A DNA stretch of 34,427 nt from assembly GCA_027623205.1 (NCBI GenBank), contig JAQBYC010000044.1:1-34427 (forward strand), in the 5' to 3' direction. Numbering within the stretch: position 1 is the first letter of the stretch; each line of letters opens with the position of its first letter. Under the pieces are notes generated by a model that saw nothing but the letters and a program-made list of their open reading frames with translations, did not search any database and was not told the DNA's origin. This document shows positions 18,122 through 34,000 of the stretch, piece by piece. The position numbers were made by a program, and so were the translations under genes. This DNA comes from Pseudomonadota bacterium (GTDB lineage: Bacteria; Pseudomonadota; Alphaproteobacteria; GCA-2731375).

Positions 18122-19143
18122 TTCGATGCCTCCGAACCAAGACGGATACGCGGATCAAGGGCCGCCAGGGCGAGGTCGGATATGAACATGCCAACCACCG
18201 TCAAGGCGGCCAGGAACAAAAGGAAGGAGCCGGCCAGATACTGATCCTGGCTTTGCAGCGCGCTGACCAGCATGGGTCCCGAGGTTGGCAGGCTCATCAC
18301 CACGGCGACTATGGCTGAGCCGGAAATCATCTGCGGCAATAGGTTGCCGATATCCGCCACGAAGGGGTTCAGTGCCATGCGCAGGGGGTATTTGAGCAAC
18401 AACGTGCGGTTTTTCAGGCCCTTGGCCCGGGCGGTCGTGACATATTGCTTTTGCAGTTCATCCAGTAGATTGGCGCGCAGACGGCGGATCATGCCGGCCG
18501 TGCCAGAGGTGCCAATGACGATCACCGGCACCACCATATGTTCGCAGATGGACAGGAATTTGCCCCAAGACATGTCCGCGCCGATGAATTGCTCGTCCAT
18601 CAGACCGCCGATGGATACGCCGAAATGTCTCTTTGCCAGGAACAGCAGGATCAGCGCCAAAAGAAAATTTGGTGTCGCCAGCCCGATATAACCGATGAAG
18701 GTCATGACATGATCGCCGACGCTGTATTGCCGTACCGCCGTGTAAACTCCGATGGGAAAGGACACCGCATAGACAAACAGCATGGTAGTGAAGTTCAGCA
18801 CCAGCGAGAGGAACAGCCGGTCGCCGACGATTTCGCTCACGGGCAGATTATATTCAAACGACCAGCCCAGATTTCCTTGCAGGATGCCGGAGAAGCCATT
18901 GTTACTGGGCCAGATCCCAAGCCAGACCGCGTATTGCTCCAACATCGGTTTGTCCAGTCCGAATTCCTGACGGAGAAAAGCCAGCTTTTCCATTGCAGCG
19001 CGGTCGCCGCTGGCGATCATTTCCGCCATCTGGTTTGAGAGATAATCGCCGGGAGGCAATTGGATGATGATGAAGGTGACGACGGATATCACCAGCAGGG
19101 TGGGGATCATCACGAGAACCCGGTGTGCGAAATAGGTGAACAT
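18118..19143 (-). CDS. Peptide-type ABC transporter permease (DppB/OppB family)
   Basis: Partner permease of the same importer, 341 aa. Begins with the typical YFAHRVLVMIPTLLVISVVTF helix and PPGDYL; central FSFEYNLPVSEIVGDRLFLSL precedes the transmembrane core. GTAGMIRRLRANLLDELQKQYVTTARAKGL is the family's EAA region, contacting the ATPase, and PLRMALNPFVADIGNLLPQMISGSAIV follows. It starts 15 bases after the binding-protein stop and overlaps the second permease by ATGA. Confidence 0.93.
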   Translation of the reverse strand: MFTYFAHRVLVMIPTLLVISVVTFIIIQLPPGDYLSNQMAEMIASGDRAAMEKLAFLRQEFGLDKPMLEQYAVWLGIWPSNNGFSGILQGNLGWSFEYNLPVSEIVGDRLFLSLVLNFTTMLFVYAVSFPIGVYTAVRQYSVGDHVMTFIGYIGLATPNFLLALILLFLAKRHFGVSIGGLMDEQFIGADMSWGKFLSICEHMVVPVIVIGTSGTAGMIRRLRANLLDELQKQYVTTARAKGLKNRTLLLKYPLRMALNPFVADIGNLLPQMISGSAIVAVVMSLPTSGPMLVSALQSQDQYLAGSFLLFLAALTVVGMFISDLALAALDPRIRLGSEASK

Positions 19144-19158
19144 GCCTGTGCGCTTCCG

Positions 19159-21066
19159 TTACCTATCGAACCAAAACGTGTCGGGCCGGTAGATACCGAA
19201 ATGGGCCCCCGGATCCCAACTGTAAATGCCCTGTCTGGGGACATTTCTCAAGCCGTGCTTGACCACGACCGGTTGCAGTACCCCGGCGACGATGCCGATG
19301 GAATAGATCTGTTCAGCATGGATGGATAGCATGCGGTGCCAGATGGCCGCGCGCCGGACCGGCTCCGTCACCGCTGTCCATTCCGCTGCCAGCGCCGCCA
19401 GTTCCTGGGCCTCGGGTGTATCTGGGGCCTCGCCCGACAGGCCCGAGGTTTCGAAATACTGGCCCCATTTCGGCCACATCAACTGCTGCTGCGAAGTCGG
19501 GGCCAGTTCCTCGGGGTTGGTTGCCGCCGTGGCGACGCCGTTTTCCAGGCCGCCCCAGATCGACATCTGGGCCTGGCCCGAAAAGACCCGATTGCGGAAG
19601 ATCTCGCGCTGGGATGGTTTGATGAATAACTTGACGCCGACCTCGGCCCAGCTTTCCGCAATCAACTCAAGGACATCGGTCTGTTCCGTGTCCTCGCCGG
19701 CGGTCTCGATTATGATCTGCAGCGGACGTCCATCGGGCAACAGGCGTATATCGTCGTTGTTGTATTTGTTCAGGCCGATCTGGTCCAACAATTCACTGGC
19801 CAGATCAGGATTATAATCGGCCCATTGTTTTTGATACTCTTCCCGAAACAACGGGCTATCCGGCAGCAAGGTGTTATTGCCCGGCAAGGCTAAACCGAAA
19901 AACAACGATTCGTTGATGGCATCGCGATCGACCGCCAGACTCAAGGCGCGCCGAAATTGCACATTGCGCATCAGTTTTGACCAAACCGGATCAGCCACAT
20001 TCAAGTTGGGGAACAGTGCGACCTGCGCACCCTTGGCAATGCGCCACAAGAATGTTTCGAATTCACCGACCGTCTCATTCTCGCGCAAAAAGGTCAGATT
20101 GTTAAAGGTCAGACTGCGGGCCTGTAAATCAACCTCGCCCAACCCGGCCTTGGCGGGGATCAGCTTGCCGTCAGAGACGATCAGGGCGAAGCTATCGAGA
20201 TAGGGCAGTTGCCGGCCCTTTTCGTCAACCCGATGGTAGTAGGGGTTGCGGACGCCGATAAAGCGGGTCGCGGGCGGGCGGGTCCGGTTGATCCAGGGCT
20301 GCAGGGTCGGCAGGTTCGGATTGTCGAACTCATACATGCTGTCGTAACGGTTATGCAACGAGGCCCAACTGCGGGTACGCTGCGTCTTCATTAGTTCGTT
20401 CAATGTTTCCTGGTCGGAATATCTTCCGTGGAACTGTCGTAGATAATGGGCCGGGCGGTAGATGAACAAGGGCGAGGCGGCGGCCAGACTCGGCAGGAAA
20501 AATGGATTGGACGTGGGCCAGGTGAAGCGTACGGTGGTTTCATCCAGGACTTCGAATTTTGGCAGCTGGCCATCGGACAACATCAGCCGCGGCGGTCCGG
20601 CCGGCGAAATTTTCAAATTATTGGCGACATCCTCCCACCAGTAACGAAAATCCTCGGCCGAGAAGAGCTGGCCGTCGGACCATTTATGGCCGCGCCGTAG
20701 TTTAAGGGTGAACTGGCGGCCATCCTTTACATCGACCGATTTCAGAATATCGGGCACGATTTCCAATTTCTCGTTGTAGCCAACCAGCCGGGCATAGCCA
20801 TAGACGACCAGCAGGCGCACATCCTTGGCCCGCCCGATCAAGGAGCGAAGTTCGCCGCCAGGACGGCCGATCTTCCGCGTTCCGGTGAAATGCACGACGG
20901 CAGGCTCGTCGGGTAGTCGCGCCGTGATCCCCGCCAGTTCGCCTGCCTTGACCCTGTTCACGAAAATCGGCGTCTCGACATAGTTCAACGCCATGGCGGT
21001 CGTCGCTGGCGCGGCCATTGCCCATCCCACCAACGCGGCAACAATGCAATTGGTCGTCGGCTTCAT
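19159..21066 (-). CDS. ABC transporter periplasmic substrate-binding protein, family 5
   Basis: Captures the substrate in the periplasm. A signal peptide is visible (basic MKPTTN, hydrophobic core, cleavage near ATTAMA at about residue 26). FTLKLRRGHKWSDGQLFSAEDF is the SBP_bac_5 signature. LRSLIGRAKDVRLLVVYGYARLVGYNEKLEIVPDIL, split by position about 73-108, marks the subfamily that goes with the extended permease. At 635 aa it is about 100 residues longer than DppA/OppA. The substrate (peptide, opine or glycan-derived) cannot be deduced. It starts inside the ATPase stop (TGATG). Confidence 0.9.
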   Translation of the reverse strand: MKPTTNCIVAALVGWAMAAPATTAMALNYVETPIFVNRVKAGELAGITARLPDEPAVVHFTGTRKIGRPGGELRSLIGRAKDVRLLVVYGYARLVGYNEKLEIVPDILKSVDVKDGRQFTLKLRRGHKWSDGQLFSAEDFRYWWEDVANNLKISPAGPPRLMLSDGQLPKFEVLDETTVRFTWPTSNPFFLPSLAAASPLFIYRPAHYLRQFHGRYSDQETLNELMKTQRTRSWASLHNRYDSMYEFDNPNLPTLQPWINRTRPPATRFIGVRNPYYHRVDEKGRQLPYLDSFALIVSDGKLIPAKAGLGEVDLQARSLTFNNLTFLRENETVGEFETFLWRIAKGAQVALFPNLNVADPVWSKLMRNVQFRRALSLAVDRDAINESLFFGLALPGNNTLLPDSPLFREEYQKQWADYNPDLASELLDQIGLNKYNNDDIRLLPDGRPLQIIIETAGEDTEQTDVLELIAESWAEVGVKLFIKPSQREIFRNRVFSGQAQMSIWGGLENGVATAATNPEELAPTSQQQLMWPKWGQYFETSGLSGEAPDTPEAQELAALAAEWTAVTEPVRRAAIWHRMLSIHAEQIYSIGIVAGVLQPVVVKHGLRNVPRQGIYSWDPGAHFGIYRPDTFWFDR

Positions 21067-22952
21067 CAGGACACCCTCGGCAATTGGGCGCCAACGGCGG
21101 CGCGCACAAAATGGCCGCCGCCCGCGTCGATCATATCAGCCATGATGCCTTCATCCAGCGTAAAGGGCGCAGGCCAGGCGCTGGGTACCGATGCCTTGCC
21201 TTCCATCAACGCGGTTAGATCCAGTCTGGCACCGGGATCGGCCTTGGGCACGGCCGCCAGCAGGGCTTGGGTATAGGGATGCATGGGATTGCGGAACAAG
21301 GTTTCCCTTGGCGCCGTCTCGACAATCCGACCAGCGCACATGACGGCGATCCGGTCGGCGACATAGTCAACCACCGCCAGATTATGCGAGATGAACAAAT
21401 AGGTGAGGCCCAGCTCTTCCTGCAGATCCTTCAACAGATTCAATACCTGGGCCTGAACCGAGACGTCCAAGGCCGAAACCGGTTCGTCACAAATCAACAG
21501 ATCCGGTTGCAGCGCCAGTGCCCGTGCAATACCGATCCGTTGCCGCTGGCCACCGGAAAAGCTGTGCGGGTAACGGCGCAAAAAGCGCACATCAAGGCCG
21601 ACCAGGGTCATCAGCTCCCGCACGCGGGCGGCGCGTTCTTCCTGATCACCAATGCTATGAATAATCAATGGTTCGGAAATGATGTCGAACACCGTCATGC
21701 GCGGGTTCAACGAGGAAAACGGATCCTGAAAAATAAATTGCACTTTGCGCCGGAAAGCGAACAGAGCGTCATCGCGCAGGGCCAGAACATCGACGATTCT
21801 ACCATGATCATTGAACGAAAGACTGCCCGCATCAGGGGCTATAGCCCGCATGATCATTTTTGACGTCGTGGTTTTGCCGCAACCGCTTTCACCGACCAGG
21901 CCCAGGCATTCGCCCGGATTGACGTGGAACGATACATCGTCCACCGCCAGCACGCCGCCGCCTGGTTTGCCGCCGAAAATCCTGCGCTTGCGGGTCTCGA
22001 AGGATTTACTCAAATGGCTGACATCCAGCAACGGTCCGGCGGCCCGCGCCGACTCGGGCCATGGCTCTCTCTGCCGCAGCAGATCACCGGCCGTGGCGGT
22101 GATTTCACGCAGGGGCACCAGACGCTCCCCCGGCTTCATGCCGAAGCGGGGCACGGCCCGCATCAGGGCTTTCAGATAGGGATGTTCCGGCTGGTTGTAG
22201 ATATCCGCCACCGGGCCCCGTTCCATGATCTTGCCGTGGTACATCACGACCACTTCATCCGCGACATTGGCGACCACGCCCAAGTCATGGGTGATCATCA
22301 ACACGGCCATGTTCAGTTCCGACTGCAAGTCCGCAATCAACTTCAGGATCTGTGCCTGGATGGTGACGTCCAGGGCCGTGGTTGGTTCATCGGCGATTAG
22401 CAGGGCCGGCCGGCAGACCAGAGCCATCGCGATCATCACCCGTTGCCGCAGACCGCCCGACAGCTCAAACGGGTATTTGAAAATCGCCTGTTCCGGTTCC
22501 GGGAAACCGACCATGCGCAACATCTCCACGGTCATTTCCATGGCCAGCTTATTTGAAACATCGCGGTGCAGCGACAAGGCTTCTGAAATTTGGTTACCGG
22601 TGGTGTGCAACGGCGACAGCGAGGTCATGGGCTCCTGAAAAATGATCGAGATACGGCCGCCCCGCACGGCCCGCATCTCTTTCGAATCCGATCGCAGACG
22701 GGTCAGATCCACGAACGTGCCGGGTTTGTCAGGATCCAGGAACAACACTTCGCCGGCGGCGATTTTTGCGGTGTCGGGCAGGATCCGCATAATGGTCTGG
22801 CTGACGACGCTTTTTCCGGATCCGGATTCACCCACCAAAGCCACTGTCTTGCCCTCGGGCACCGTAAAAGAGATGCCATCGACGGCCCGTATCAAACCTT
22901 CCGCGGCCTGAAATTCGACGACCAGGTCACGCACGCGCAGAACATTTGTCAT
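21066..22952 (-). CDS. Double ATP-binding protein of peptide-type ABC importer (DppD-DppF fusion)
   Basis: Both nucleotide-binding domains of the importer are fused in one 628-aa chain. Domain 1 has Walker A GESGSGKS (41-48), signature LSGGLRQR (164-171) and Walker B LLIADEP with TTALD. Domain 2 has GESGCGKT (354-361), FSGGQRQR (465-472) and LLICDEP (Asp489, Glu490). Each ends with the oligopeptide-type C-terminal extension, e.g. HPYLKALMRAVP and HPYTQALLAAVP. Both sites look catalytically complete. ATG overlaps the stop of the small membrane protein gene (ATGA). Confidence 0.95.
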   Translation of the reverse strand: MTNVLRVRDLVVEFQAAEGLIRAVDGISFTVPEGKTVALVGESGSGKSVVSQTIMRILPDTAKIAAGEVLFLDPDKPGTFVDLTRLRSDSKEMRAVRGGRISIIFQEPMTSLSPLHTTGNQISEALSLHRDVSNKLAMEMTVEMLRMVGFPEPEQAIFKYPFELSGGLRQRVMIAMALVCRPALLIADEPTTALDVTIQAQILKLIADLQSELNMAVLMITHDLGVVANVADEVVVMYHGKIMERGPVADIYNQPEHPYLKALMRAVPRFGMKPGERLVPLREITATAGDLLRQREPWPESARAAGPLLDVSHLSKSFETRKRRIFGGKPGGGVLAVDDVSFHVNPGECLGLVGESGCGKTTTSKMIMRAIAPDAGSLSFNDHGRIVDVLALRDDALFAFRRKVQFIFQDPFSSLNPRMTVFDIISEPLIIHSIGDQEERAARVRELMTLVGLDVRFLRRYPHSFSGGQRQRIGIARALALQPDLLICDEPVSALDVSVQAQVLNLLKDLQEELGLTYLFISHNLAVVDYVADRIAVMCAGRIVETAPRETLFRNPMHPYTQALLAAVPKADPGARLDLTALMEGKASVPSAWPAPFTLDEGIMADMIDAGGGHFVRAAVGAQLPRVS

Positions 22953-23533
22953 GATGGTGACTTCGCATCCGTGATTGCCGCGCTTGGGTCGTTGCTGCCC
23001 AGACCAAGGGACGACAGGTTCGCCGCCGTTGTGGGATCAATGGCCAGGCCACGATCCCGCGCAGCCAGGTAGGCGCGGCGAACAATCTCGTCAAAGCCAG
23101 GTAAATGGGAATCCATGCGGATGGCGCCGCGGTTTGCCGAATTCCAACGCCCCCCGCTGTCATGATCTCCCGGATCACGATTGTCCCCGCGGCGCAGTGT
23201 CAGCTGCATCCAACCCCCTTTCCGGTCGCGCTCGGTAGAATAATAACGAAGGCGAAAATCCCGCATTTCCGACCAGCGTAATTTGCGGTCCAACAATCCC
23301 CCCAAAGGGCCCTCCTGGCGAACACCGATCTCATCAACGATCAAAACCGTACCATGGCGCCACGCCGTGCGCAGACCATATACCGCGAACAACAAGGCCA
23401 AGGCGGTCATGCTATAGAATACAACCGGTATCAGCTTCGTAAAGATCATCAACGCCAACGGCAAAAATACACCAATCGCGGCGCGTACATAATCAGCCGC
23501 CAAGGCTTTTATTGGATAGCGATACCTGTTCAT
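22949..23533 (-). CDS. Small membrane protein of unknown function
   Basis: I do not recognise a named family. Residues about 14-53 contain two hydrophobic helices (AAIGVFLPLALMIFTKLIPV and FYSMTALALLFAVYGL) with a short turn. They are followed by a soluble part with beta-strand character (TVLIVDEIGVRQEGPLGG, LRWSEMRDFRLRYYSTERD, GWMQLTL), which resembles bacterial PH-like domains that sit after a pair of membrane helices. The tail is Asp/Ala/Ser-rich. It overlaps the preceding gene by 1 base (TAATG) and the next by 4, so it is made with the deacetylase-like protein and the ABC importer. Length is 194 aa. Confidence 0.75.
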   Translation of the reverse strand: MNRYRYPIKALAADYVRAAIGVFLPLALMIFTKLIPVVFYSMTALALLFAVYGLRTAWRHGTVLIVDEIGVRQEGPLGGLLDRKLRWSEMRDFRLRYYSTERDRKGGWMQLTLRRGDNRDPGDHDSGGRWNSANRGAIRMDSHLPGFDEIVRRAYLAARDRGLAIDPTTAANLSSLGLGSNDPSAAITDAKSPS

Positions 23534-24297
23534 TACGCCAGCCTAAAGGCTTCATCTGTCGTTAACCAGTGAACGTTGTCACATTCTTTGGTGCGCGCGA
23601 ACAATTCTGCTAGAAAATCCCATCCGGCCTGGTCCATGACGTCGTGATGGCTCAAAATGCCGCTGCTTTCTTCCGGATCAACGGTGCCGTTGCGCCGTTC
23701 CCGCAAGTGGGCGATCAGTCTATCGAGAGCCCTGGTTTCGCCGATGAAGCGGCGTCCACCGTGCCAATCGATCAAATCCAGATGACAATTGCACTCCAAC
23801 AGACCAGGCGCGGGGTGCGCCGCTGCCCGCGGTCCGAAGCGGGACAGACCGCGAAATTGCGCCTGGGGTAGCCGGTGCACCAGATCCGCATCAATCCGGT
23901 TCCACGGTGGTACGAAAACAGGCAAAGCCTGCAGCGGAAAGCGGTCGGCCAGATTTTTCCAGGCAATGGCGGCGTCGTCCAACATCTGGCGGACCGGCCG
24001 ATCGGCGCCAAATTCCGCCTTTTTCCGATCCGCTGGCGCGTGGTTCTGATGGGTTAGCCCATGGACCAGGATTTTCACCCCGGTCAGATCCGCCAGGACC
24101 TCTTGCAAGGCGTCTTCCGCCCGTCCCGGAATAACGGCCAGGGCCAGGGCGATGCCGGCCTTACGCGACAATTCGGTCAGTTGGCGCAGCCGCGGCCCAG
24201 GGGCCACGGCATCGTCATCGCGCCACCACAGGTCCGGCCGCCGCCCTGCCGCCGCCCAGCGCTTCAACTCTTCGATCAGATCGCTCCAGCTTGCCAT
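23533..24297 (-). CDS. Polysaccharide deacetylase-like protein
   Basis: 254 aa with the NodB-homology layout: WWRDDDA (Asp27-29, catalytic base and metal ligand), HGLTHQNH (His79, His83 as zinc ligands), FVPPWNRI (motif 3) and SGILSHHDVMD near the C-terminus (motif 5 His). The fold suggests removal of an acetyl group from a glycan, fitting the glycosyltransferase neighbours. There is no signal peptide, so if active it works on a cytoplasmic, probably lipid-linked intermediate, which is unusual for this family. It starts 32 bases after the glycosyltransferase gene. Confidence 0.8.
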   Translation of the reverse strand: MASWSDLIEELKRWAAAGRRPDLWWRDDDAVAPGPRLRQLTELSRKAGIALALAVIPGRAEDALQEVLADLTGVKILVHGLTHQNHAPADRKKAEFGADRPVRQMLDDAAIAWKNLADRFPLQALPVFVPPWNRIDADLVHRLPQAQFRGLSRFGPRAAAHPAPGLLECNCHLDLIDWHGGRRFIGETRALDRLIAHLRERRNGTVDPEESSGILSHHDVMDQAGWDFLAELFARTKECDNVHWLTTDEAFRLA

Positions 24298-24306
24298 CCT
24301 GCGGCC

Positions 24307-24334
24307 AGTCCCCCGTTACCAGTCCCCCGTTACC
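24307..24334. repeat. 14-bp tandem duplication over a stop codon
   Basis: AGTCCCCCGTTACC is present twice in tandem (24307-24320 and 24321-24334). The right copy contains the stop codon (TAA on the minus strand) of the MurG-like glycosyltransferase. The duplication lengthens the spacer to the deacetylase-like gene and places a G-rich stretch before its start. Confidence 0.8.
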
Positions 24335-25526
24335 AGGCCAGTGCCCCGGCCCAGGCGGCGATCTGGCGCGCGCCCTCCGCCGCGCCATCGGTGCGCACAC
24401 CCGCGGTCCCGCCCATGGCGCCGGCCGCCACCGGCGCCCCCTTCAGGGCCCGGTCGATAGCGGTGGAGATCGCGGCCGGTGATAAATCCGTCTCGTCGAT
24501 CACCGTCAGGACGCCGCGTTGCGCCAGCAATTCCGCCCGCAGTGTCTGTTCCGTCTCCAGCCCACCGGCGTAAGGCACGACAATGCCCCGGCAGCCGGCG
24601 TGCATGCATTCCATCAAGGTGTTGTAGCCACCCTGGCTGATGGACAGCACACAGTTCATCAGCAAGGAAGGGAAATCGCCCCGGGCGCGCTCGACCACGA
24701 TACCGCCCTCGCCACCGAATTCCGCCGCCAAGTCGATCAGCGCCTGAAAATCGTCCTCGGGGACCTTGACCCCGACCAGTATCCGCCAGCGCCGGTCGGC
24801 CAGGGCGCTTCCGGCCCGGGCGCGGATGGCCGCCCGCAACAGGGTATCGCCCACGGCCCCGCCGCCCGCCGAGACCAGCACCTCATCCCAGCCGGGGCTG
24901 CCGGGGCCGCCCCGCCGGCCCGTCCGGTCCACGACATATCCCGTGTAATGCAATTTGCCGGCAATCTCCGCCGCATGGGGGAAGGTGGTATCGAATGGGA
25001 TCAAATCCGGGTCGCCGTGGACCAGCACATGATCGAAATAATGCCGCACCCGATCCAGCATTTCCATCAGGCGCTCGGGCTTCGGCGGCGCCACCAGAAT
25101 ATCCCGGACCGAGGAGACGATGACCGGACGCCGTGGGCTGGCCAGGGCCGCGTCCAACAAGGGCAGCAATTCGAACTGCATCTGGCGCCGCCCAAAAGGA
25201 TACAATTCCAACATGATGACATGGGGCTGGTGCCTATGCCAGGCATCTAGCAGGGCGTTGCGCCGCCGGTCCCGCCAGGCGTCATCAATGGGCTGGTCAT
25301 GGTCATCCACCAGCTTCTTGAAATACAGATCGACAGCCCGCACCGGGGGCAACTGCACCAGTTCGGCGCCGCCCAGATCCAGATTTGGAATGCCATGCCC
25401 GCCCGAGACATAGGTGACCGACAGGCCCGCCTCCTGCATGGCCCGGGTCAGCGTGGCGCCCCGGCGTTGATGGCCGATGCCCAGCAGATGCTGGACATAG
25501 AACAGGACGCGCTTGCCATCATTCAT
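24330..25526 (-). CDS. MurG-like (GT28 C-terminal type) glycosyltransferase
   Basis: GT-B fold transferase. The N-terminal VLFYVQHLLGIGHQRRGATL with GIGH is the acceptor-side glycine loop, and the C-terminal SQGGYNTLMECMHAGCRGIVVPYAGG resembles the MurG/UDP-glycosyltransferase donor-binding region. A GLETEQTLRAELLAQRGVL segment follows, where the family reads E-x-x-Q-x-x-(N/R). Donor and acceptor are unknown. ATG 25526 is chosen over the longer frame because it overlaps the phosphatase stop (ATGA) and starts right at the conserved region. Length is 398 aa. It resembles in layout the first gene of this cluster (28695-29963), suggesting paralogues. Confidence 0.82.
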   Translation of the reverse strand: MNDGKRVLFYVQHLLGIGHQRRGATLTRAMQEAGLSVTYVSGGHGIPNLDLGGAELVQLPPVRAVDLYFKKLVDDHDQPIDDAWRDRRRNALLDAWHRHQPHVIMLELYPFGRRQMQFELLPLLDAALASPRRPVIVSSVRDILVAPPKPERLMEMLDRVRHYFDHVLVHGDPDLIPFDTTFPHAAEIAGKLHYTGYVVDRTGRRGGPGSPGWDEVLVSAGGGAVGDTLLRAAIRARAGSALADRRWRILVGVKVPEDDFQALIDLAAEFGGEGGIVVERARGDFPSLLMNCVLSISQGGYNTLMECMHAGCRGIVVPYAGGLETEQTLRAELLAQRGVLTVIDETDLSPAAISTAIDRALKGAPVAAGAMGGTAGVRTDGAAEGARQIAAWAGALAW

Positions 25527-26191
25527 GGGGCGGCCGCCTGATCCACCGGCGCATGACGTGACCGCAAGGGAACATTCATGCGCCATGGCCGTACGGCGCC
25601 CGCGCCATCCACGTTGAACAAATGGGCGCGGTCCCACAGCAGCTTTACCGGCGGCCGGCCCAGCATGTTCCAGTCATAGGCGGCAGCGAAAATCGCCCGA
25701 ATGACCGATTTGTGCGCCACCGCGATATGCCGGCCGCCGGCCTGGCCCAGTTCCGCCAGGAAGGGCCGCAGCCGTTCCTGCACCATGCGCGGACTTTCCC
25801 CGCCCGGGGGCAGAAAATCCAGACCGCGGTGTTCATTCTCCACCATGCCGGCAGCGGGGTCGGCGCGCAGTTCTTCCAGGCTGCGGCCTTCGTAGGCGCC
25901 AAAATCCATTTCGATCAGGCGTGCTTCGATGTGTAACGCGTTGGCGCCTAGTTCACCAGCATCGTCCATGCCTCCGGCCATGTCGCCGGACCCACTTAAT
26001 ATGGCCGCTGTCTGCCGTGCCCGGATTAAGGGGCTGACATGCCAGGTGGCGCCGTCCAGTTCCTCTGGTGGATGCAAACCGGCCAGGGCCAGCCGGCCTG
26101 CTTCGGTCAGGGCGATATCGGCACGCCCGGTCATCCGGCCGTCGCTGTTCCAGGCAGTGCGGCCATGGCGGATCAGGCCCAGCAAGCTCAT
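25523..26191 (-). CDS. Histidine phosphatase family protein
   Basis: Phosphoglycerate mutase-like phosphatase: LIRHGRTAWN near residue 6 has the phospho-accepting His, with an Arg in SPLIRARQTA, catalytic Glu region EMDFGAYEGRSLEEL and second His in IAVAHKSVIRAI. Length 222 aa matches CobC/GpmB-like enzymes. In this setting it may remove phosphate from a sugar phosphate or glycolipid intermediate, but this is inferred from neighbours only. Both ends overlap adjacent glycosyltransferase genes by 4 bases. Confidence 0.88.
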   Translation of the reverse strand: MSLLGLIRHGRTAWNSDGRMTGRADIALTEAGRLALAGLHPPEELDGATWHVSPLIRARQTAAILSGSGDMAGGMDDAGELGANALHIEARLIEMDFGAYEGRSLEELRADPAAGMVENEHRGLDFLPPGGESPRMVQERLRPFLAELGQAGGRHIAVAHKSVIRAIFAAAYDWNMLGRPPVKLLWDRAHLFNVDGAGAVRPWRMNVPLRSRHAPVDQAAAP

Positions 26192-27345
26192 GGCATTATC
26201 TCTCCCAGGACATTGGCGATACTCTGCGCCGCTGCCGCTACCGTGCGTTCCCCGCGTACGAATGCGAGGGCGCCATCGGATAGCGTCTGCCGCAGGACGG
26301 GGTCATCCAGCAATCGCCGCGTGGCGGCGGCAAAAGCGGCGTCGTCTCCCGGCGCGGTCAACAGGCCGGTCTCTTCATGGCGCACCACATCCGGCACCCC
26401 CCGTTCATTGCCGGCGACGACCGGCAGGCCCATCGCCTGCGCCTCCAAATAGGCCATGCCGTAGGCCTCGCCCACGCCGGGCCACAGGTAAAGATCACAG
26501 GCCGCGTACAGTTCAGGTAATTGTACCTGGGGCAAGGCGCCGGTCAGGACCAAAGCGCCATGGCGATTGCGAGCCACGGGCGCCAGGGCGGCGGTGACCT
26601 GATGCCGGGCCGGGCCGTCGCCGACCACCAATAATTGCCAATCACCGCCACCCAGATGCGCCAGGGCAGCGCCCAGCCGTTGATAGGATAGCAGCTTGTC
26701 GCCCGGCCGCATCATGGCCACCGCCAACAACCAGCGCCGTTCCGGGTCCAGCCCGAAACGCCGCGCCAATTCGGTCCGGCCGGTCTGCGCCGTCCGGGCC
26801 CGGACAAACGGTTGCGGGTCGAGAAAGGGCGGCAGAAAGAACAATCGATGTCCGGCGGGCACCAGGGGGCGGACACAGGCCATATCCAACCGGGTCATAC
26901 AGAATACGCAATCCGCCGCCGCGATGGCACGGGCCGCGGCGCAATGGCCTATATCCCACGGCCCGCCGGCTCGTTTCGGCGCGAACGAGGCCTCGGCTAC
27001 CAGATAGGGAATTTCCAGGGCCGCCGCCACCTTTGGGCCAATCCAGTCCGGCGCCTTGTGGTACAGGTGATAGGTGAACCAGGCGGTTGGCCGGGCGGCG
27101 TCCGTCAGGGCGCGGTATTGGCCAATCAATCTATCCGCCACGGCATCGCCTTCGCTCTGCAGCGCCTTTTGCCGTACCTCATCCCCCTGTCCGTCATAGG
27201 ATCGAAAATCCGACGCCAGTTCCACCTTGGCGCCGGTCGTTTCGAGGGCCTGGATCAACAAACGCGCCATCTGCCGATCTCCTGACGGCGTCGGGTGGGT
27301 CGGCGCCTTCAATGGTGCATAAAAGGCGACGCGCCGGGTCGCCAT
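26188..27345 (-). CDS. GT4-family glycosyltransferase
   Basis: 385-aa retaining GT-B transferase. The N-terminus AFYAPLKAPTHPTPSGDRQM is the acceptor-domain start. The donor-domain features are RWLLAVAMMRPGDKLLSYQR, WQLLVVGDGPAR and the EX7E-type segment GEAYGMAYLEAQAMGLPVV. Sugar and acceptor cannot be assigned. ATG 27345 is chosen because it shares one base with the upstream stop (TGATG) and places the conserved region at the start; a longer frame to 27435 lies within the upstream gene. Confidence 0.87.
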   Translation of the reverse strand: MATRRVAFYAPLKAPTHPTPSGDRQMARLLIQALETTGAKVELASDFRSYDGQGDEVRQKALQSEGDAVADRLIGQYRALTDAARPTAWFTYHLYHKAPDWIGPKVAAALEIPYLVAEASFAPKRAGGPWDIGHCAAARAIAAADCVFCMTRLDMACVRPLVPAGHRLFFLPPFLDPQPFVRARTAQTGRTELARRFGLDPERRWLLAVAMMRPGDKLLSYQRLGAALAHLGGGDWQLLVVGDGPARHQVTAALAPVARNRHGALVLTGALPQVQLPELYAACDLYLWPGVGEAYGMAYLEAQAMGLPVVAGNERGVPDVVRHEETGLLTAPGDDAAFAAATRRLLDDPVLRQTLSDGALAFVRGERTVAAAAQSIANVLGEIMP

Positions 27346-28658
27346 CAGGCTTTCCCGACGTTGCCGTCGGGACCGGTATCGGCGTCGGCAGCCATCTCGG
27401 GCAGGGCAAATTTGCGGGCCAGCCGTCTGATCCAAAAATTGTGGGAAAACTGGCTCCTGACCCGTTCCTGACCAGCCTGGCCCAATTGCCGGCGCCGGGC
27501 CGGTTCCGCGATCAGACCGGCCAGGGCCCGGCTCAGTTCCGCCCGATCGCGGCTTTCGACCAGGATTCCTGTCTCCCCATGGGTGATCAGCTCTGGGATC
27601 GCCGATACCCTGGTCGCGATACAGGTCAGACCCTGGCTTTGCGCTTCCATCAAGACATTGGGCAGGCCGTCCCGGTCGCCATCGCCCGCGATCCGGCTGG
27701 CAAGGACAAAAATGTCGGCGTCCCGATAGGCCGCCAGGACCGCCTCCAGCGGCTGCGCGCCGCGCCAGGTAATCCGGTCCGCGATACCCGCCTGTTTGGC
27801 CTGCTGTTGCAGTTTGTCCGACAGATTGCCGCCGCCGATATGAACCAGACGCCAGTGCAGCGATGGCGGCAGGGCCGCCAGGGCGGCGATCAGATCGTCA
27901 TAGCCTTTCTTGCCGACAGCCCGGCCGACCGAGAGGATCCGCACCGGGTCGGTTTCATTCCGGCCGTCACGATCGGCGCAGGCTTTGGCCGGCGGCGCGA
28001 ATTGGGCCAGATCGATACCATGATAAATAAGCTCCACCGTGCCCTGGGCATTGTTTTGTCCATTATTCTTGGGCGCCAATGCCGCCAGATGATCATGGGC
28101 GGCCTGACTGCAGGTTACCAGCCAGTCCAGATCAGCCAGTTTTTCCCGCTTCTCCCAGTCGGGGATGGTCCAGATATCCTTGGCATGGGCTGAGCTACTC
28201 CACCGGCGGGCCGTCAGGTGGGCCGTGTAGCGGGCAACAGAGGCGGGGGTGTGCAGGAAATGGGCATGCAGATGACGGACCTCGTCACTCAATTCCGCCG
28301 CCAATACCAAGGCCTGGCCAAATCGGCGGATGCGATTAGGGCTGCGGTCGCGCCGCAGATCCCGCAGCCACAGGCGCCGCGCGGCGCGATAGCCAGGCCA
28401 TTGCCGCACCAGCTTCCAGGCACGCCAAAGCCGCAGCGGTTCCTGGTACAGGTATTCCGGCAGGTAATTGACCGATGCGTTGATGCGCCGGTGCACCGGA
28501 TGCACGGCCCGCTCAGTCGGGTGCCGCAGCGAGATGATGCGAATGTCCAGGCCTCGCTGTTCCAACGCTTCAATCTCTTGCGCGATGAAGGTTTCCGTTA
28601 AGCGGGGATAGCCCTTCAAAATAAAGGCAACCGGTTTCACTGCTGTATAGGGCCCCAT
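27345..28658 (-). CDS. GT4-family glycosyltransferase, exopolysaccharide (WcaL/AmsK-like) type
   Basis: Begins with VAFILKGYPRLTETFIAQEI, a hallmark of colanic-acid/amylovoran type GT4 enzymes that extend polysaccharide repeat units. HLHAHFLHTPASVA and SSSAHAKDIW (acceptor domain) and SVGRAVGKKGYDDL and GDGDRDGLPNVLMEAQSQGL (donor domain, EX7E-like) are visible. Length is 437 aa. ATG 28658 is chosen; the frame also has a TTG at 28679. Neither has a strong ribosome site. The gene starts 36 bases after the preceding one. Confidence 0.87.
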   Translation of the reverse strand: MGPYTAVKPVAFILKGYPRLTETFIAQEIEALEQRGLDIRIISLRHPTERAVHPVHRRINASVNYLPEYLYQEPLRLWRAWKLVRQWPGYRAARRLWLRDLRRDRSPNRIRRFGQALVLAAELSDEVRHLHAHFLHTPASVARYTAHLTARRWSSSAHAKDIWTIPDWEKREKLADLDWLVTCSQAAHDHLAALAPKNNGQNNAQGTVELIYHGIDLAQFAPPAKACADRDGRNETDPVRILSVGRAVGKKGYDDLIAALAALPPSLHWRLVHIGGGNLSDKLQQQAKQAGIADRITWRGAQPLEAVLAAYRDADIFVLASRIAGDGDRDGLPNVLMEAQSQGLTCIATRVSAIPELITHGETGILVESRDRAELSRALAGLIAEPARRRQLGQAGQERVRSQFSHNFWIRRLARKFALPEMAADADTGPDGNVGKA

Positions 28659-28694
28659 GGTCAAGGTCACGCCGTCCAATTCTGATAGAGGGCG

Positions 28695-29963
28695 TCAATC
28701 TCCCAATGATACCTTGGCCCGTTTGTCCACCGCGACCTGTTTCGCCGCCGCATCCGGCGCCATGTCCGGCTCGGACAGCCACGGCGCCACCAGGCGGTTG
28801 ACGTTGTCCAGGCCTTCCAGCAAGCCAGGCACGATGATATCCCGGGGCTTGTTTTGATAGGGCAACTCTTGCAGCGCCTTGCCCATGACCGCCGCGTCCC
28901 GTTCGCCATCGTCTTCCAGCATGCGAACCAGCCCCAGTTCCTGCGCCCGGCTGGCGCGGATAAATTGCTCCATCCGGGGCCGGGTGCGCGGGATGATCAG
29001 GGCCGGCTTGTTGAAGCTGAGGATTTCGCAGAATGTGTTGTAGCCACCCATGGCCACGACACCGACGGCATTGTCTTCCAATTCCTCCAACTTCGCGTCG
29101 AAGGTGATGGCCTGCACCCGGTCCAATCGGTTCGCCCGGTCGATGAATTCCGCCTGGGCTTCGGGTTGCATGAACGGACCCAGGACAATCAGCGCCGGAT
29201 ACAGCGTGCGGCTGTCGGTTTCGTAGGCGCGCAGCACCCAATCGACCAGTTCCTCGCCATCGCCACCGCCCCCGGTGGTCACCAGTAAATAGGGTTCGGA
29301 GACGATTTCCGGCAGCGGCCGGGTCGAAGGCTCGGTCGGCGCGCGCCGCTGCAGATAGCCGGTATAAACCATCCGCTCGCGCACCCGACACGGCACCGGC
29401 AGACCCTCCAGGGGATCGCAAATCTGCGGCAGACCGTAAACCCAGATTTCATCATACAGATCGCGCAGCGCGGGCATGGCGTTTTTGCGCCGCCATTCGG
29501 GCGCCAGCATCAGCGGGTCATCCATGATATCGCGCAGGCCCAACACCAGCCGGGTGCCCCGCGCTTTCAACATGCGCAGGGTCTCTTCGATCTCGCCGCG
29601 CAGGCCCAGGGGCTCCTTGTCCACGATCACCAAGTCGGGGGCGAAGATATCCGCCGTATGTTTGATGATCGCCGCCCGCATATGAATGGTTTGCTCGAAA
29701 TCGATGCCCAGGTTCAACGATGTGTATTCGCCGTTGCGCAGTTTGATCACGCCGGGAATACGCACGAAATCAACGCGGGAGCGAAAATCGAAACTGCCGA
29801 TGATCGGCGAGCCGGACAGAATGAGCACCGACAGATCGGGGTATTGGCGCACCAGGGAATGGGCGATGGTGCTGCACCGCCGCAAATGACCCAAACCCAT
29901 GGTATCGTGGCTATAGATTAGAACACGAAAGCCCCGCATACCTTCCAGCGTGCCTTGAGGCAT
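28695..29963 (-). CDS. MurG-like glycosyltransferase, first gene of the glycan/importer string
   Basis: 422 aa, GT-B fold. FRVLIYSHDTMGLGHLRRCS (residues 12-31) has the glycine-His loop at the acceptor side. YLLVTTGGGGDGEELVDWVL and VVAMGGYNTFCEILSFNKPALIIP are donor-side motifs resembling MurG and the 24330 gene. The acceptor is unknown. GGGAGAG lies about nine bases before ATG 29963. It is divergent from the 902-aa ABC protein gene, so a shared regulatory region of 253 bases separates the two transcription units. Confidence 0.83.
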   Translation of the reverse strand: MPQGTLEGMRGFRVLIYSHDTMGLGHLRRCSTIAHSLVRQYPDLSVLILSGSPIIGSFDFRSRVDFVRIPGVIKLRNGEYTSLNLGIDFEQTIHMRAAIIKHTADIFAPDLVIVDKEPLGLRGEIEETLRMLKARGTRLVLGLRDIMDDPLMLAPEWRRKNAMPALRDLYDEIWVYGLPQICDPLEGLPVPCRVRERMVYTGYLQRRAPTEPSTRPLPEIVSEPYLLVTTGGGGDGEELVDWVLRAYETDSRTLYPALIVLGPFMQPEAQAEFIDRANRLDRVQAITFDAKLEELEDNAVGVVAMGGYNTFCEILSFNKPALIIPRTRPRMEQFIRASRAQELGLVRMLEDDGERDAAVMGKALQELPYQNKPRDIIVPGLLEGLDNVNRLVAPWLSEPDMAPDAAAKQVAVDKRAKVSLGD

Positions 29964-30216: not shown

Positions 30217-32925
30217 ATGGAAAAGACTATTTTCGGTTATGTCTGGCGGTTTTCACGTCGCCAGCAAATCATCTTGACGCTGATGTCGGCGGCCTCCCTG
30301 CCGTTTCTATATCTGTTCTATGAAGTTCCGAAAACCATCATCAACCAGGCCATTCAGGGCCGTCACGTCGAATACCCGCTAAATCTTGCCGACAAACTGA
30401 CGGTTTCCGTACTTGGCGTTGACATCCCCCTGCTTGGACCCTTTGACCTGATCATCGGCCAGATTTCCTATCTGTATATTCTGTGTGGCGTGTTCCTGTT
30501 GCTGGTGGGCGTCAATCAAGGCTTCAAATACCTCATCAACGTCTATAAAGGTCTGACGGGCGAACGCATGTTGCGGCGCCTGCGCTTTGAACTTTATGCC
30601 CGGGTCCTGCGCTTTCCCTTGCCGACCTTCCGCAAAATGAGCCAGGGCGAAATAATTCCCATGATCACGGCCGAGGTGGAACCGCTGGGCGGCTTCATTG
30701 GTGATGCCTATTCCCTGCCGGCCTTTCAGGGCGGCTATCTGGTGACCATTCTGACTTTTTTGTTCTTGCAGGATTGGCGCATGGCGGCGGCGGCGGTGTC
30801 GCTCTATCCCCTGCAACTGTGGTTGATCCCCAAATTGCAGCGCAAGGTGAACCAGCTGGGCAAGGAGCGCGTCAGGCGGGTGCGCCGGTTGTCGGATAAA
30901 ATAGGCGAGACCGTGCAGGGCGTGCAGGAGGTGCATGCGCACGATACCGCCGGCTTCGTATTGACGGATTTTTCCAACCAGTTGTTCTGGATCTATGGGG
31001 TGCGCGAGCGGATCTATCGCCAGAAATTCGTTATCAAGTTTCTCAACAACTCCATTCAACAGCTGGGCCCATTCTGTTTCTACTCGATCGGCGGCTATTT
31101 TGTCATCAACGGCGCGCTGGAAATCGGCACCCTGGTGGCCGCGATTGCCGCCCACAAGGATCTGGCCGCGCCCTGGAAGGATCTGTTGGCGTACTATCAG
31201 ATGCAGGCGGACGCCACGATCAAGTATGACACGGTGGTTAGCCAGTTCGGCCCCGCCGGCATGCGCGGGCCGGACTATCAATTGACCGAGCCTGCCGATC
31301 TGGGCCCCCTGACGGGTGAATTGACGGCCAGCAACCTGACCTTGATCAATGATCAGGAGGTGCCGGTGGTTGATGGCGTTTCCTTGCGCCTGCCGCTTGA
31401 CAGGCGCTACGCCATCGTCGGCGCGGGGGGCAGCGGCAAGGATGAAATGACCCTGCTGCTGGCCCGTTTGCTGGATCCCAGCAATGGCAACATCAATCTG
31501 GGCGGCGGCGATGCCGCATTGCTGCCGGAGGCAGTGACGGGCCGGCGTATCGCGCATGTGGGCGCGGCCGCATTTGTCTTTGCCGGCACCATCGCCGACA
31601 ACTTGTTTCTCGGGTTGAAGCATCGGCCCCTGCGATCGGCCGAATATGACGGCGCCGCGGCCAAACATCGCGCCGTCTATGTCGACGAGGCCCGGCGCTC
31701 CGGCAATATTGATCACGATCCCGATGCCGACTGGATTGATTACGCCGCCGCCGGGGTGGAGGACCCTATCGCGCTGCGACAGGCGGGCCTGGCGGCGCTG
31801 ACGCGGATCGGCATGGGCGAAGAAATCTATCAGTTCGGTCTGCGCGGCATCATTGATCCCCACGCGCGGCCCGATCTGGCGGCCGCAATTCTGCGCGCCC
31901 GTGCGGGTTTGCGGCGGCATATGGCCGCCGACCCGGCCCTGCTGGTGCTGGTCGAAGGTTTCGACGTGGCCGCCTACAACCTGAATGCATCCGTGGGCGA
32001 GAACCTGATGTTTGGCAATCCGGTTGGCGATGCCTTCGATGTCGAGCATCTGGCCGAGCATCCGTATGTCCTGGATGTGCTGACACAGGTTGGCCTGACG
32101 GAGCAATTCCTCTCGGTCGGTTATCAGGTGGCCTCGACGATGGTTGAATTGTTTGCCGATCTGCCGCCCGATCACGAGCTGTTCCAGCAATTCAGCTTCA
32201 TCTCGGCCGATGAACTGCCGGATATCCAGGCCCTGCTGCAACGCAGTGACCGGGCCAACCTGGCGGCCCTGCCTGACGAGTATCGGGCGCAGCTGATGTC
32301 GTTGCCGTTCAAGATAATCCCGGCCCGTCACCGCCTGGGGCTGGTGGATGTTCAACTGCAAAGCAAGATACTGGAAGGGCGCCGCTATTTCGCCGCCAAT
32401 CTGCCGGACGAGCTGCGCGACGCGGTGGAGTTCTTCGATATGGAAAAATACAATGCCTCGGCGAATATCCAGGACAATATCCTGTTCGGCAAGGTGGCTT
32501 ATGGCCAGGCCCATGCGGTTGATCGGACCGGCGCCTTGATTTCCGAAGTCATCAGGGAACTGGACCTGAACGAAGTCGTCTCCGAGGTTGGCTTGAACTT
32601 TGCGGTGGGCATTGCCGGGTCCCGCCTATCGGCCGCCCAGCGGCAAAAGCTGGCCTTGGGACGGGCGCTCGTGAAGCGCCCGGATGTTTTGATCTTGTCG
32701 GAAGCCACCACCTCCCTGGACTCGGCGACCCAGGCCCGGATAATGGCGTCCTTGTTGGCTGAATTCGAGGGCCGCTGTCTGATCTGGTCCGTACAGCGGG
32801 CCAGCATGGCGGTGGGTTTCGATGAAGTGCTGGTCATGCGCCAGGGCCGTTTGATGGATCGCGGCGCCTATGCGGAATTGAGCCAGAATAATGAGCATGT
32901 CAAAGAATTGTTGGCGTCCGAGTGA
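30217..32925 (+). CDS. ABC exporter-like protein with enlarged, degenerate nucleotide-binding domain
   Basis: 902 aa. Residues 1-330 form a type IV exporter membrane domain (PFLYLFYEVPKTIINQAIQG, YLYILCGVFLLLVGVNQG, GYLVTILTFLFLQDW, FCFYSIGGYFVINGALEIG). The nucleotide-binding domain starts about residue 370, with Walker A GAGGSGKD (402-409). Roughly 400 residues then separate it from the signature SRLSAAQRQKLALGRALV (about 800); about 100 is normal. Walker B reads DVLILSEATTSLD: Ser828 replaces the usual Asp while Glu829 remains. Gln860 (SVQRAS) replaces the H-loop His, and the first Q-loop position reads HVGAAAF without Gln. Three Q-loop-like copies occur: GTIADNLFLG (457), NASVGENLMFG (590) and NASANIQDNILFG (746). 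It may be regulatory or slow-cycling, perhaps exporting the glycan made next door. Confidence 0.85.
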   Translation: MEKTIFGYVWRFSRRQQIILTLMSAASLPFLYLFYEVPKTIINQAIQGRHVEYPLNLADKLTVSVLGVDIPLLGPFDLIIGQISYLYILCGVFLLLVGVNQGFKYLINVYKGLTGERMLRRLRFELYARVLRFPLPTFRKMSQGEIIPMITAEVEPLGGFIGDAYSLPAFQGGYLVTILTFLFLQDWRMAAAAVSLYPLQLWLIPKLQRKVNQLGKERVRRVRRLSDKIGETVQGVQEVHAHDTAGFVLTDFSNQLFWIYGVRERIYRQKFVIKFLNNSIQQLGPFCFYSIGGYFVINGALEIGTLVAAIAAHKDLAAPWKDLLAYYQMQADATIKYDTVVSQFGPAGMRGPDYQLTEPADLGPLTGELTASNLTLINDQEVPVVDGVSLRLPLDRRYAIVGAGGSGKDEMTLLLARLLDPSNGNINLGGGDAALLPEAVTGRRIAHVGAAAFVFAGTIADNLFLGLKHRPLRSAEYDGAAAKHRAVYVDEARRSGNIDHDPDADWIDYAAAGVEDPIALRQAGLAALTRIGMGEEIYQFGLRGIIDPHARPDLAAAILRARAGLRRHMAADPALLVLVEGFDVAAYNLNASVGENLMFGNPVGDAFDVEHLAEHPYVLDVLTQVGLTEQFLSVGYQVASTMVELFADLPPDHELFQQFSFISADELPDIQALLQRSDRANLAALPDEYRAQLMSLPFKIIPARHRLGLVDVQLQSKILEGRRYFAANLPDELRDAVEFFDMEKYNASANIQDNILFGKVAYGQAHAVDRTGALISEVIRELDLNEVVSEVGLNFAVGIAGSRLSAAQRQKLALGRALVKRPDVLILSEATTSLDSATQARIMASLLAEFEGRCLIWSVQRASMAVGFDEVLVMRQGRLMDRGAYAELSQNNEHVKELLASE

Positions 32926-32960: not shown

Positions 32961-33004
32961 TCCCTATAAAGAATCGGCGCACGTTTTGATTAAATGTGCT
33001 CCAA
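32949..33004 (+). repeat. MITE-like intergenic repeat, half copy D
   Basis: Matches only the right half of copies A-C: TTCAATTGCTCT, then AAAGAATC and GCACGTTTTGATTAAATGTGCTCC. The left half with the GAGTCGC palindrome is absent. It lies between the ABC gene and the cNMP-binding gene. Confidence 0.65.
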
Positions 33005-33032
33005 TGTTTTGATTACTGGGCGGAGACCGGTC

Positions 33033-33509
33033 ATGAGCCTGAACGAAGAAGTTGAACTGCTGCGCAGTATCCCGTTGTTCGCCAATATCGAACCTTCCAA
33101 GCTGAAGCTGTTGGCCTTCACGTCGGAACGTCTGGCCTTCCAGGAGGGGCAAAGTCTTTTTCATCAGGGCGACATGGGTGATGCCGCCTATCTGGTGGTG
33201 GACGGCACCGCCGACGTGGTGATCGAGGGGCCCGACGGCGGCAAGCTGACGGTGGCCCAGATTGGCCGCAATGCCTTTGTGGGTGAAATCGCCATTCTGT
33301 GCGATGTGCCCCGGACCGCCACGATCACCGCCACGACAAACCTCGATACGCTGCGGATCAGCAAGGAGCTGTTTTTTCGTCTGGTGAATGAATTTCCCAC
33401 CATGGCGGTGGAAATCATGCGCGAGCTGGCGCGGCGGCAGGAACAATCCAATCTGCAACTGACCGAAGCCAACCGCCGGCTGCGGGAATTGGAGAGTGCC
33501 GGCGCTTGA
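33033..33509 (+). CDS. Stand-alone cyclic-nucleotide-binding domain protein
   Basis: 158 aa consisting of a single cNMP-binding beta-roll: LRSIPLFANIEPSKLKLLAF, EGQSLFHQGDMGDAAYLVVDG, and a phosphate-binding cassette GEIAILCDVPRTATI containing the Glu and Arg that hold the cyclic phosphate and ribose. A C-terminal helix (AVEIMRELARRQEQSNLQL) follows, but no DNA-binding HTH, so it is not a Crp-type regulator by itself. It probably binds a partner. ATG 33033 is preferred for its GGAG ribosome site over the open frame from 32994. Its place between the ABC protein and the methyltransferase is consistent with nucleotide control of that trio. Confidence 0.87.
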   Translation: MSLNEEVELLRSIPLFANIEPSKLKLLAFTSERLAFQEGQSLFHQGDMGDAAYLVVDGTADVVIEGPDGGKLTVAQIGRNAFVGEIAILCDVPRTATITATTNLDTLRISKELFFRLVNEFPTMAVEIMRELARRQEQSNLQLTEANRRLRELESAGA

Positions 33510-34000
33510 GCCGTCTGGACAGCGCCATTCGCCGCCTGCAGGCGCAGCGGGCCTGCCTGGACTGGGCCATGGCCGAGATTGCCGGGCAATCGGGTCCGGT
33601 GCTGGAATTGGGCCTGGGCAATGGCCGCAGCTATGATCATCTGCGCCATAATTTGCCGGGGCGCGAGATCTTTGTCTGCGAGCGCAAGGTTGCCGCGCAC
33701 CCCGATTGCATACCCGACGACCGGCATCTGTTGCTGGGCGACTTCACGGATACGCTGCCCGGCGCCCTGTCGCGCCTGGGGGCGCGGGCGGTTCTTGCCC
33801 ATTGCGATATTGGCAGCGGCGATAGCGCCCTGACCGCGGCGCTTGCCACCTTTGTCGGCCCCGCGCTGGCGCCTCTGCTGGCAACCGGCGCCGTGGTGGC
33901 GGCCGATCAGGCCCTGGATATTCCCGGCTGCCGGGCGGTCGCCCTGCCCCCTGGCGTGGCGGCGGGCCGCTACCACCTGTATCGCAACAGCCCGAAATGA
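33506..34000 (+). CDS. Small class I SAM-dependent methyltransferase-like protein
   Basis: 164 aa. PVLELGLGNGRSYDHLR (about 31-47) is methyltransferase motif I, and EIFVCERKVAAHPDCIPDD follows with the acidic residue after strand 2. HLLLGDFTDTLP and AVLAHCDIGSG resemble motifs II-III. The start is TTG overlapping the preceding stop as TTGA, with GGAGAG 9 bases upstream; an ATG does not occur at a sensible place. The substrate is unknown. Its tight coupling to the cNMP-binding gene suggests a shared function. Confidence 0.8.
   Translation: MSRLDSAIRRLQAQRACLDWAMAEIAGQSGPVLELGLGNGRSYDHLRHNLPGREIFVCERKVAAHPDCIPDDRHLLLGDFTDTLPGALSRLGARAVLAHCDIGSGDSALTAALATFVGPALAPLLATGAVVAADQALDIPGCRAVALPPGVAAGRYHLYRNSPK

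Follow-up and report, generated by a model that had tools for sequence, protein, structure and literature searches.

The ABC exporter-type gene and its neighborhood

The window analyzed here, a 34,427-nucleotide (nt) stretch of alphaproteobacterial DNA, carries an open reading frame on its forward strand (positions 30217-32925) whose 902-amino-acid product is an ABC-exporter-type protein. Pfam matches the translation to PF00664 and, in two separate stretches, to PF00005, in agreement with the initial annotation of a 902-residue ABC protein. The exporter-type transmembrane domain (residues 1-345; 30217-31251) belongs to the type IV ABC exporter domain family PF00664, with a match over residues 83-310 (E value, 1e-18; 68.4 bits against a cut-off of 28). 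It is the best conserved part of the protein family, with 74 of 345 alignment columns more than 90% identical. The nucleotide-binding domain (NBD) follows in two halves on the same strand, an N-terminal half (residues 362-466; 31300-31614) and a C-terminal half (residues 737-902; 32425-32922), separated by an insert (residues 467-736; 31615-32424).

Immediately downstream and on the same strand lies a stand-alone cyclic-nucleotide-binding protein (32994-33509), for which PF00027 is the sole Pfam match (E value, 8.1e-20); no DNA-binding domain was detected in it by Pfam. This partner has a conserved phosphate-binding cassette, GEIAILCDVPRTAT, that fits the pattern GE..L.....R.A[TS], and the consensus across the partner alignment is vGEiaiLcdvpRtAt. 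We drew 40 neighborhoods from 40 genomes. A cyclic nucleotide (cNMP) domain accompanies the ABC gene in all 40, as a separate downstream gene on the same strand in 35 and as a C-terminal fusion in the remaining 5. Plasmids of Azospirillum ramasamyi and Ruegeria sp. B32 carry further fused forms. The recurrent fusion of a gene that is otherwise a neighbor is strong evidence for a common function, and we consider it probable that the ABC protein is regulated by cNMP. Genomic linkage of the cNMP gene does fall short of proving physical coupling. A regulatory role had been proposed from the ABC sequence itself; it is plausible on the strength of this invariable partner, evidence that the proposal had not used.

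The window also encodes a class III nucleotide cyclase (14160-15512, forward strand; PF00211, E value, 3.9e-11), a homologue of which lies close to the ABC gene in 6 of 40 neighborhoods. This cyclase is a possible source of the cNMP signal. Its N-terminus is predicted to be membrane bound, and the motifs VCDIRGFT and DKFMGDG appear intact by eye.

Several other genes recur around the pair. An S-adenosylmethionine (SAM) methyltransferase gene (33506-34000, forward strand; PF12692) follows the cNMP gene and has a homologue nearby in 15 of 40 neighborhoods. Upstream and divergent, on the reverse strand, lies a glycan gene set (23533-29963) encoding two GT4 glycosyltransferases, two GT28-like proteins, a histidine-phosphatase-family protein, and a protein of unknown family; each gene is linked in 24 to 27 of the 40 neighborhoods, and 28 have one or more of the glycosyltransferases linked. 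An oligopeptide-type ABC importer, also on the reverse strand (16934-22952), comprises two permeases, an SBP_bac_5 binding protein, and a double ATPase, and at least one of its components is likewise linked in 28 of 40. Importer and glycosyltransferases are both absent nearby in the other 12. The order importer, glycosyltransferases, ABC gene, cNMP gene also occurs in Rhizobium etli plasmid p42e, Sinorhizobium medicae, and Shinella. Two conserved cluster genes (22949-23533 and 23533-24297) have no Pfam match; the product of the latter is 38% identical to a Phyllobacterium protein annotated as a polysaccharide deacetylase, whose own Pfam match is below the cut-off.

The split NBD and its insert

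We compared a profile of the 73-member family alignment with one built from canonical exporters that the same genome encodes. Residues 362-466 match canonical NBD residues 9-110 (E value, 1.3e-27), and residues 735-902 match canonical residues 88-246 (E value, 4.2e-31). Both halves of the type IV exporter NBD fold are thus recognizable by sequence, with the insert splitting them. In the same profile-profile comparison, canonical residues 88-110 appear on either edge of the insert. These two half-matches indicate that the NBD has been cut at its Q-loop region, with a Q-loop-type motif flanking the cut on both sides. The insert itself, about 270 residues long, has no counterpart in the canonical NBD profile except for a third copy of the motif; the copy that lies within the insert matches that profile weakly (E value, 0.005 to 0.006). 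An insert of 242 to 341 residues was found in all 73 members. Measured alike, the family has a median of 394 residues between the end of Walker A and the signature, versus 90 to 101 in 11 canonical ABC proteins, a difference that accounts for the roughly 300 extra residues reported in the initial annotation.

The three similar motifs noted at the outset are found at residues 458-466 (copy 1, TIADNLFLG; 31588-31614), 592-600 (copy 2, SVGENLMFG; 31990-32016), and 749-758 (copy 3, ANIQDNILFG; 32461-32490), all on the forward strand. Such a pattern is rare by chance: among 20,000 shuffles of the protein it was present in 32 and never more than once per shuffle. Across the family the key motif residues are nearly fixed, with N462 kept in 71 of 73 members and N596, N754, and G758 in every one. 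The last two copies are preceded by the F-D-x-x-x-Y-N element that had been described for them, as FDVAAYN (582-588) and FDMEKYN (740-746).

We searched for duplication by comparing 70-residue windows of the family profile all against all, for a total of 595 pairs. The best pairs all join residues 551-638 with residues 711-795, at an offset of 157 to 160 residues and a top E value of about 1e-18. We refer to these regions as repeat unit A (31867-32130, forward strand) and repeat unit B (32347-32601, forward strand); their profile-profile match has an E value of about 1e-18 over residues 551-606 and 6.5e-17 over residues 573-638. When residues 551-600 are aligned directly to residues 712-758, they share a helix with an invariant Arg, then VE-FD---YN, and then the motif. 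Weaker window pairs join copy 1 with copy 3 (E value, 2e-6) and copy 1 with copy 2 (E value, 6e-6). Taken together, the window comparisons and the direct alignment indicate a short motif present three times and a longer unit present twice. The proposed internal duplication within the NBD is therefore supported, in part, at the profile level, and its description as a triplication holds for the short Q-loop motif but not for the longer repeat unit, which was detected twice. We also considered whether the units repeat a whole helical subdomain including the post-signature helix, with R562 and R722 equivalent to R816; this arrangement was unsupported (E value, 0.1).

Structure prediction gave little resolution of the insert. 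AlphaFold2 models, built on an alignment of 8 mostly close sequences, were poor on account of that small alignment: mean pLDDT was 45 for the whole protein and 61 for NBD plus insert, the strands of the NBD core alone being confident and the insert being of low confidence. Foldseek matches of this low-confidence prediction to ABC proteins had query TM-scores below 0.2 and were given no weight.

Catalytic residues and maintenance of the family

We next examined the residues needed for ATP hydrolysis. The initial annotation had listed replacement of the Walker B Asp by Ser, replacement of the H-loop His by Gln, and an LSAAQ signature, all of which are present in the C-terminal NBD half (Ser828, in the Walker B stretch LILSE at 825-829; Gln860; residues 804-808). 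It had missed two others, namely, Asp409 in place of the Ser/Thr that follows the Walker A Lys and Ala450 at the position of the Q-loop Gln. Walker A accordingly reads GAGGSGKD (residues 402-409; 31420-31443, forward strand), which departs from GxxGxGK[ST].

The same elements are eroded throughout the family, though unevenly. The Walker A Lys is kept in 32 of 73 members and the following Ser/Thr in 6; Gln occurs within the Q-loop stretch in 14; Walker B retains Asp in 12 and Glu in 40; the H-loop His persists in 18; and no member has SGG in the LSGGQ signature. All seven catalytic elements are found together in none of the 73, the maximum is four, and 19 members keep none. These counts mean that the substitutions first noticed are not conserved one by one, whereas the absence of a complete catalytic site extends across the whole alignment. 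What all members share is the lack of a complete ATP site and the possession of the insert. The Walker A Lys and Ser co-occur with the Walker B Asp-Glu in 3 of 73 members, so ATP binding may persist in some of the family. The departure from classical ATP-driven transport that had been suggested is thus supported, and goes further than suggested, since the full catalytic set is missing in every member. A slow ATPase, which had been offered as one outcome, fits poorly with catalytic residues that vary freely between members and with the 19 that have none of the seven elements. Judged from the motifs, the ATPase is very likely dead.

Despite these losses, the family shows no sign of decay. Among nine congeners, the membrane domain has a dN/dS of 0.074, the two NBD halves have values of 0.146 and 0.115, and the two parts of the insert have values of 0.132 and 0.070, ratios that are approximate because dS is near 1. 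Every region of the full-length family is therefore under purifying selection (dN/dS about 0.1; range, 0.07 to 0.15), which indicates that the pseudo-ATPase is maintained. Family members (E value of 1e-60 or lower) were found in 131 of 385 sampled genomes of Alphaproteobacteria, and the 27 genomes that matched in a phylum-wide sample were without exception from this class. Matches on plasmids had the same distribution, every organism name listed being alphaproteobacterial (including Rhizobium, Sinorhizobium, Azospirillum, Phaeobacter, and Ruegeria). The genome samples and the plasmid records gave no relatives outside Alphaproteobacteria, and none turned up when viral contigs were scanned. Named genome records that lie close to the window are metagenome assemblies of marine alphaproteobacteria. 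Public records label the members "ABC transporter ATP-binding protein," and a limited search of open-access literature text returned no description of the family.

Some relatives consist of the membrane domain only. Roseobacter plasmids encode proteins of about 410 to 490 residues that match residues 2-355 alone and lie within copper-resistance gene clusters, and four chromosomal relatives of this kind, also alphaproteobacterial, were found. Neither an NBD nor a cNMP domain was detected within 17 to 25 kb of these genes, by a search that recovered both from two control loci. The membrane domain is thus kept in nature without an ATPase encoded adjacent to it. These relatives (L098:11797-13266, L099:11758-12996, L101:11779-13038, and L142-L145) have an additional N-terminal hydrophobic stretch.

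Possible roles and rival explanations

The family resembles several known systems in part. Like the type IV exporters MsbA, Sav1866, and P-glycoprotein, it combines the PF00664 membrane family with both NBD halves; unlike them, it bears an NBD insert of about 270 residues and in no member has the complete ATPase motif set. Against the MsbA equivalog model TIGR02203, the 902-amino-acid protein scored 177.5 bits, where the cut-off is 602. SbmA, in which an ABC-type membrane domain acts as a secondary transporter and draws on the proton gradient (PMC13316013), serves as an accepted precedent. The likeness to SbmA/BacA (SLiPT) is one of idea, namely, a membrane domain independent of an NBD. Pfam gave only PF00664 and PF00005 for our protein at E values up to 1, and not PF05992 (SbmA_BacA); the protein also retains an NBD remnant, an insert, and a cNMP partner, whereas SbmA has no NBD remnant. 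The pairing of an ABC exporter-type protein with a cNMP-binding-domain protein recalls NHLM-type bacteriocin export with TIGR03896, although both proteins match the respective models weakly, with scores that fall far short of the curated cut-offs of TIGR03796, TIGR03797, and TIGR03896 (151.6 against 853.3, 106.9 against 709.4, and 38.1 against 161.05). CFTR and the sulfonylurea receptors are a channel or regulator derived from ABC exporters, with degenerate ATP sites and a link to second messengers. The present family would share these traits with them, but they are eukaryotic ABCC proteins with two NBDs per chain and without a cNMP-binding module.

As far as can be read from sequence, then, the family has lost its ATPase residues, has a conserved insert with duplicated Q-loop-type units, and is inseparable from a cNMP module. 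With its ATPase residues lost and a cNMP sensor invariably alongside or fused to it, the protein probably acts as a transporter or membrane regulator under second-messenger control and not as one powered by ATP. We think it reasonably likely that an ABC exporter gave rise to a pseudo-ATPase, maintained by selection, in which the former NBD is a connector and the cNMP partner gates the membrane domain. In such a mechanism the protein would dimerize via its membrane domains, as exporters do, and the insert-bearing former NBD would act as a connector without hydrolyzing ATP. The partner domain would bind cAMP or cGMP, and the connector would relay this binding to the interface of Q-loop and coupling helix and so alter the membrane domain's state. 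That domain would then transport, or govern the transport of, a molecule associated with the neighboring glycosyltransferase genes, powered by a gradient or by that of the substrate itself in place of ATP. Dimer formation, lack of hydrolysis, cNMP gating, substrate, and energy source are all steps that we infer. Our best reading is that the protein would serve a surface-glycan cluster, as a cNMP-gated ABC-derived transporter or regulator; that it transports a glycan-related substrate is a more tentative suggestion. Equally tentative is the broader proposal of a new alphaproteobacterial class of ABC-derived proteins in which an ATPase has turned into a signaling connector, duplicated Q-loop units pass on the cNMP signal, and no ATP is hydrolyzed.

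The protein might not transport at all but instead, through its membrane domain, sense a glycan or peptide, in a role like that of the sulfonylurea receptors, controlling the linked importer or the glycosyltransferases together with the cNMP protein. The invariable partner (40 of 40) and the linkage of importer and glycosyltransferases (28 of 40 each) fit this, yet the conservation of the membrane domain, the highest of any region, suits transport at least equally well, and 12 of 40 neighborhoods have neither of the presumed targets nearby; we regard a pure sensor as unlikely. Asymmetric exporters with a single degenerate site are well known, and the loss of ATPase motifs could likewise mark one half of a heterodimer whose canonical subunit, encoded elsewhere, gives one working ATP site. 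Several canonical exporters are indeed present in the same genome. No canonical exporter, however, was found near the family gene in any of 48 neighborhoods, and the sole ATPase linked to it belongs to the importer. Known degenerate exporter halves also retain more motifs, while here not even the Walker A Ser/Thr or the glycines of the signature survive, and the membrane-domain-only relatives are similarly without a nearby partner. We consider such a heterodimer rather improbable.

Less probable still, and to our minds very doubtful, is a working exporter with an unusual ATP site to which the insert supplies the replacement residues, a version of the slow ATPase raised in the initial annotation. 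Retention of the Walker A Lys in 32 and the Walker B Glu in 40 of 73 members, and the ease with which the NBD halves are recognized (E values, 1e-27 and 4e-31), speak for it. Yet the catalytic residues vary freely while the Asn residues of the Q-loop-type motifs are constant, and 19 of 73 members retain none of the seven elements. Gene decay or an assembly artifact would explain the altered motifs, the only thing found in its favor, but has a negligible chance of being correct given frames that are open at full length across dozens of families and a dN/dS of about 0.1.

If the pseudo-ATPase reading is true, a widespread bacterial exporter has shifted from being ATP driven to being controlled by a second messenger, and natural intermediates are at hand in members whose ATP site is partly intact, cNMP-fused members, and membrane-domain-only relatives. 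The public label "ABC transporter ATP-binding protein" probably misstates how the members work. Genetic work is practical, since Sinorhizobium meliloti, Rhizobium etli, and Ruegeria pomeroyi all have members. The copy in S. meliloti 1021 (NC_003078.1, 841723-844435) is one base longer than the copy in strain 2011 found with the same query, and the extra base could reflect a frameshift, or else an error of sequencing in the 1021 record. The genome search also recovered a second family copy within one genome (L037; G056:C15) that is interrupted by an in-frame TGA.
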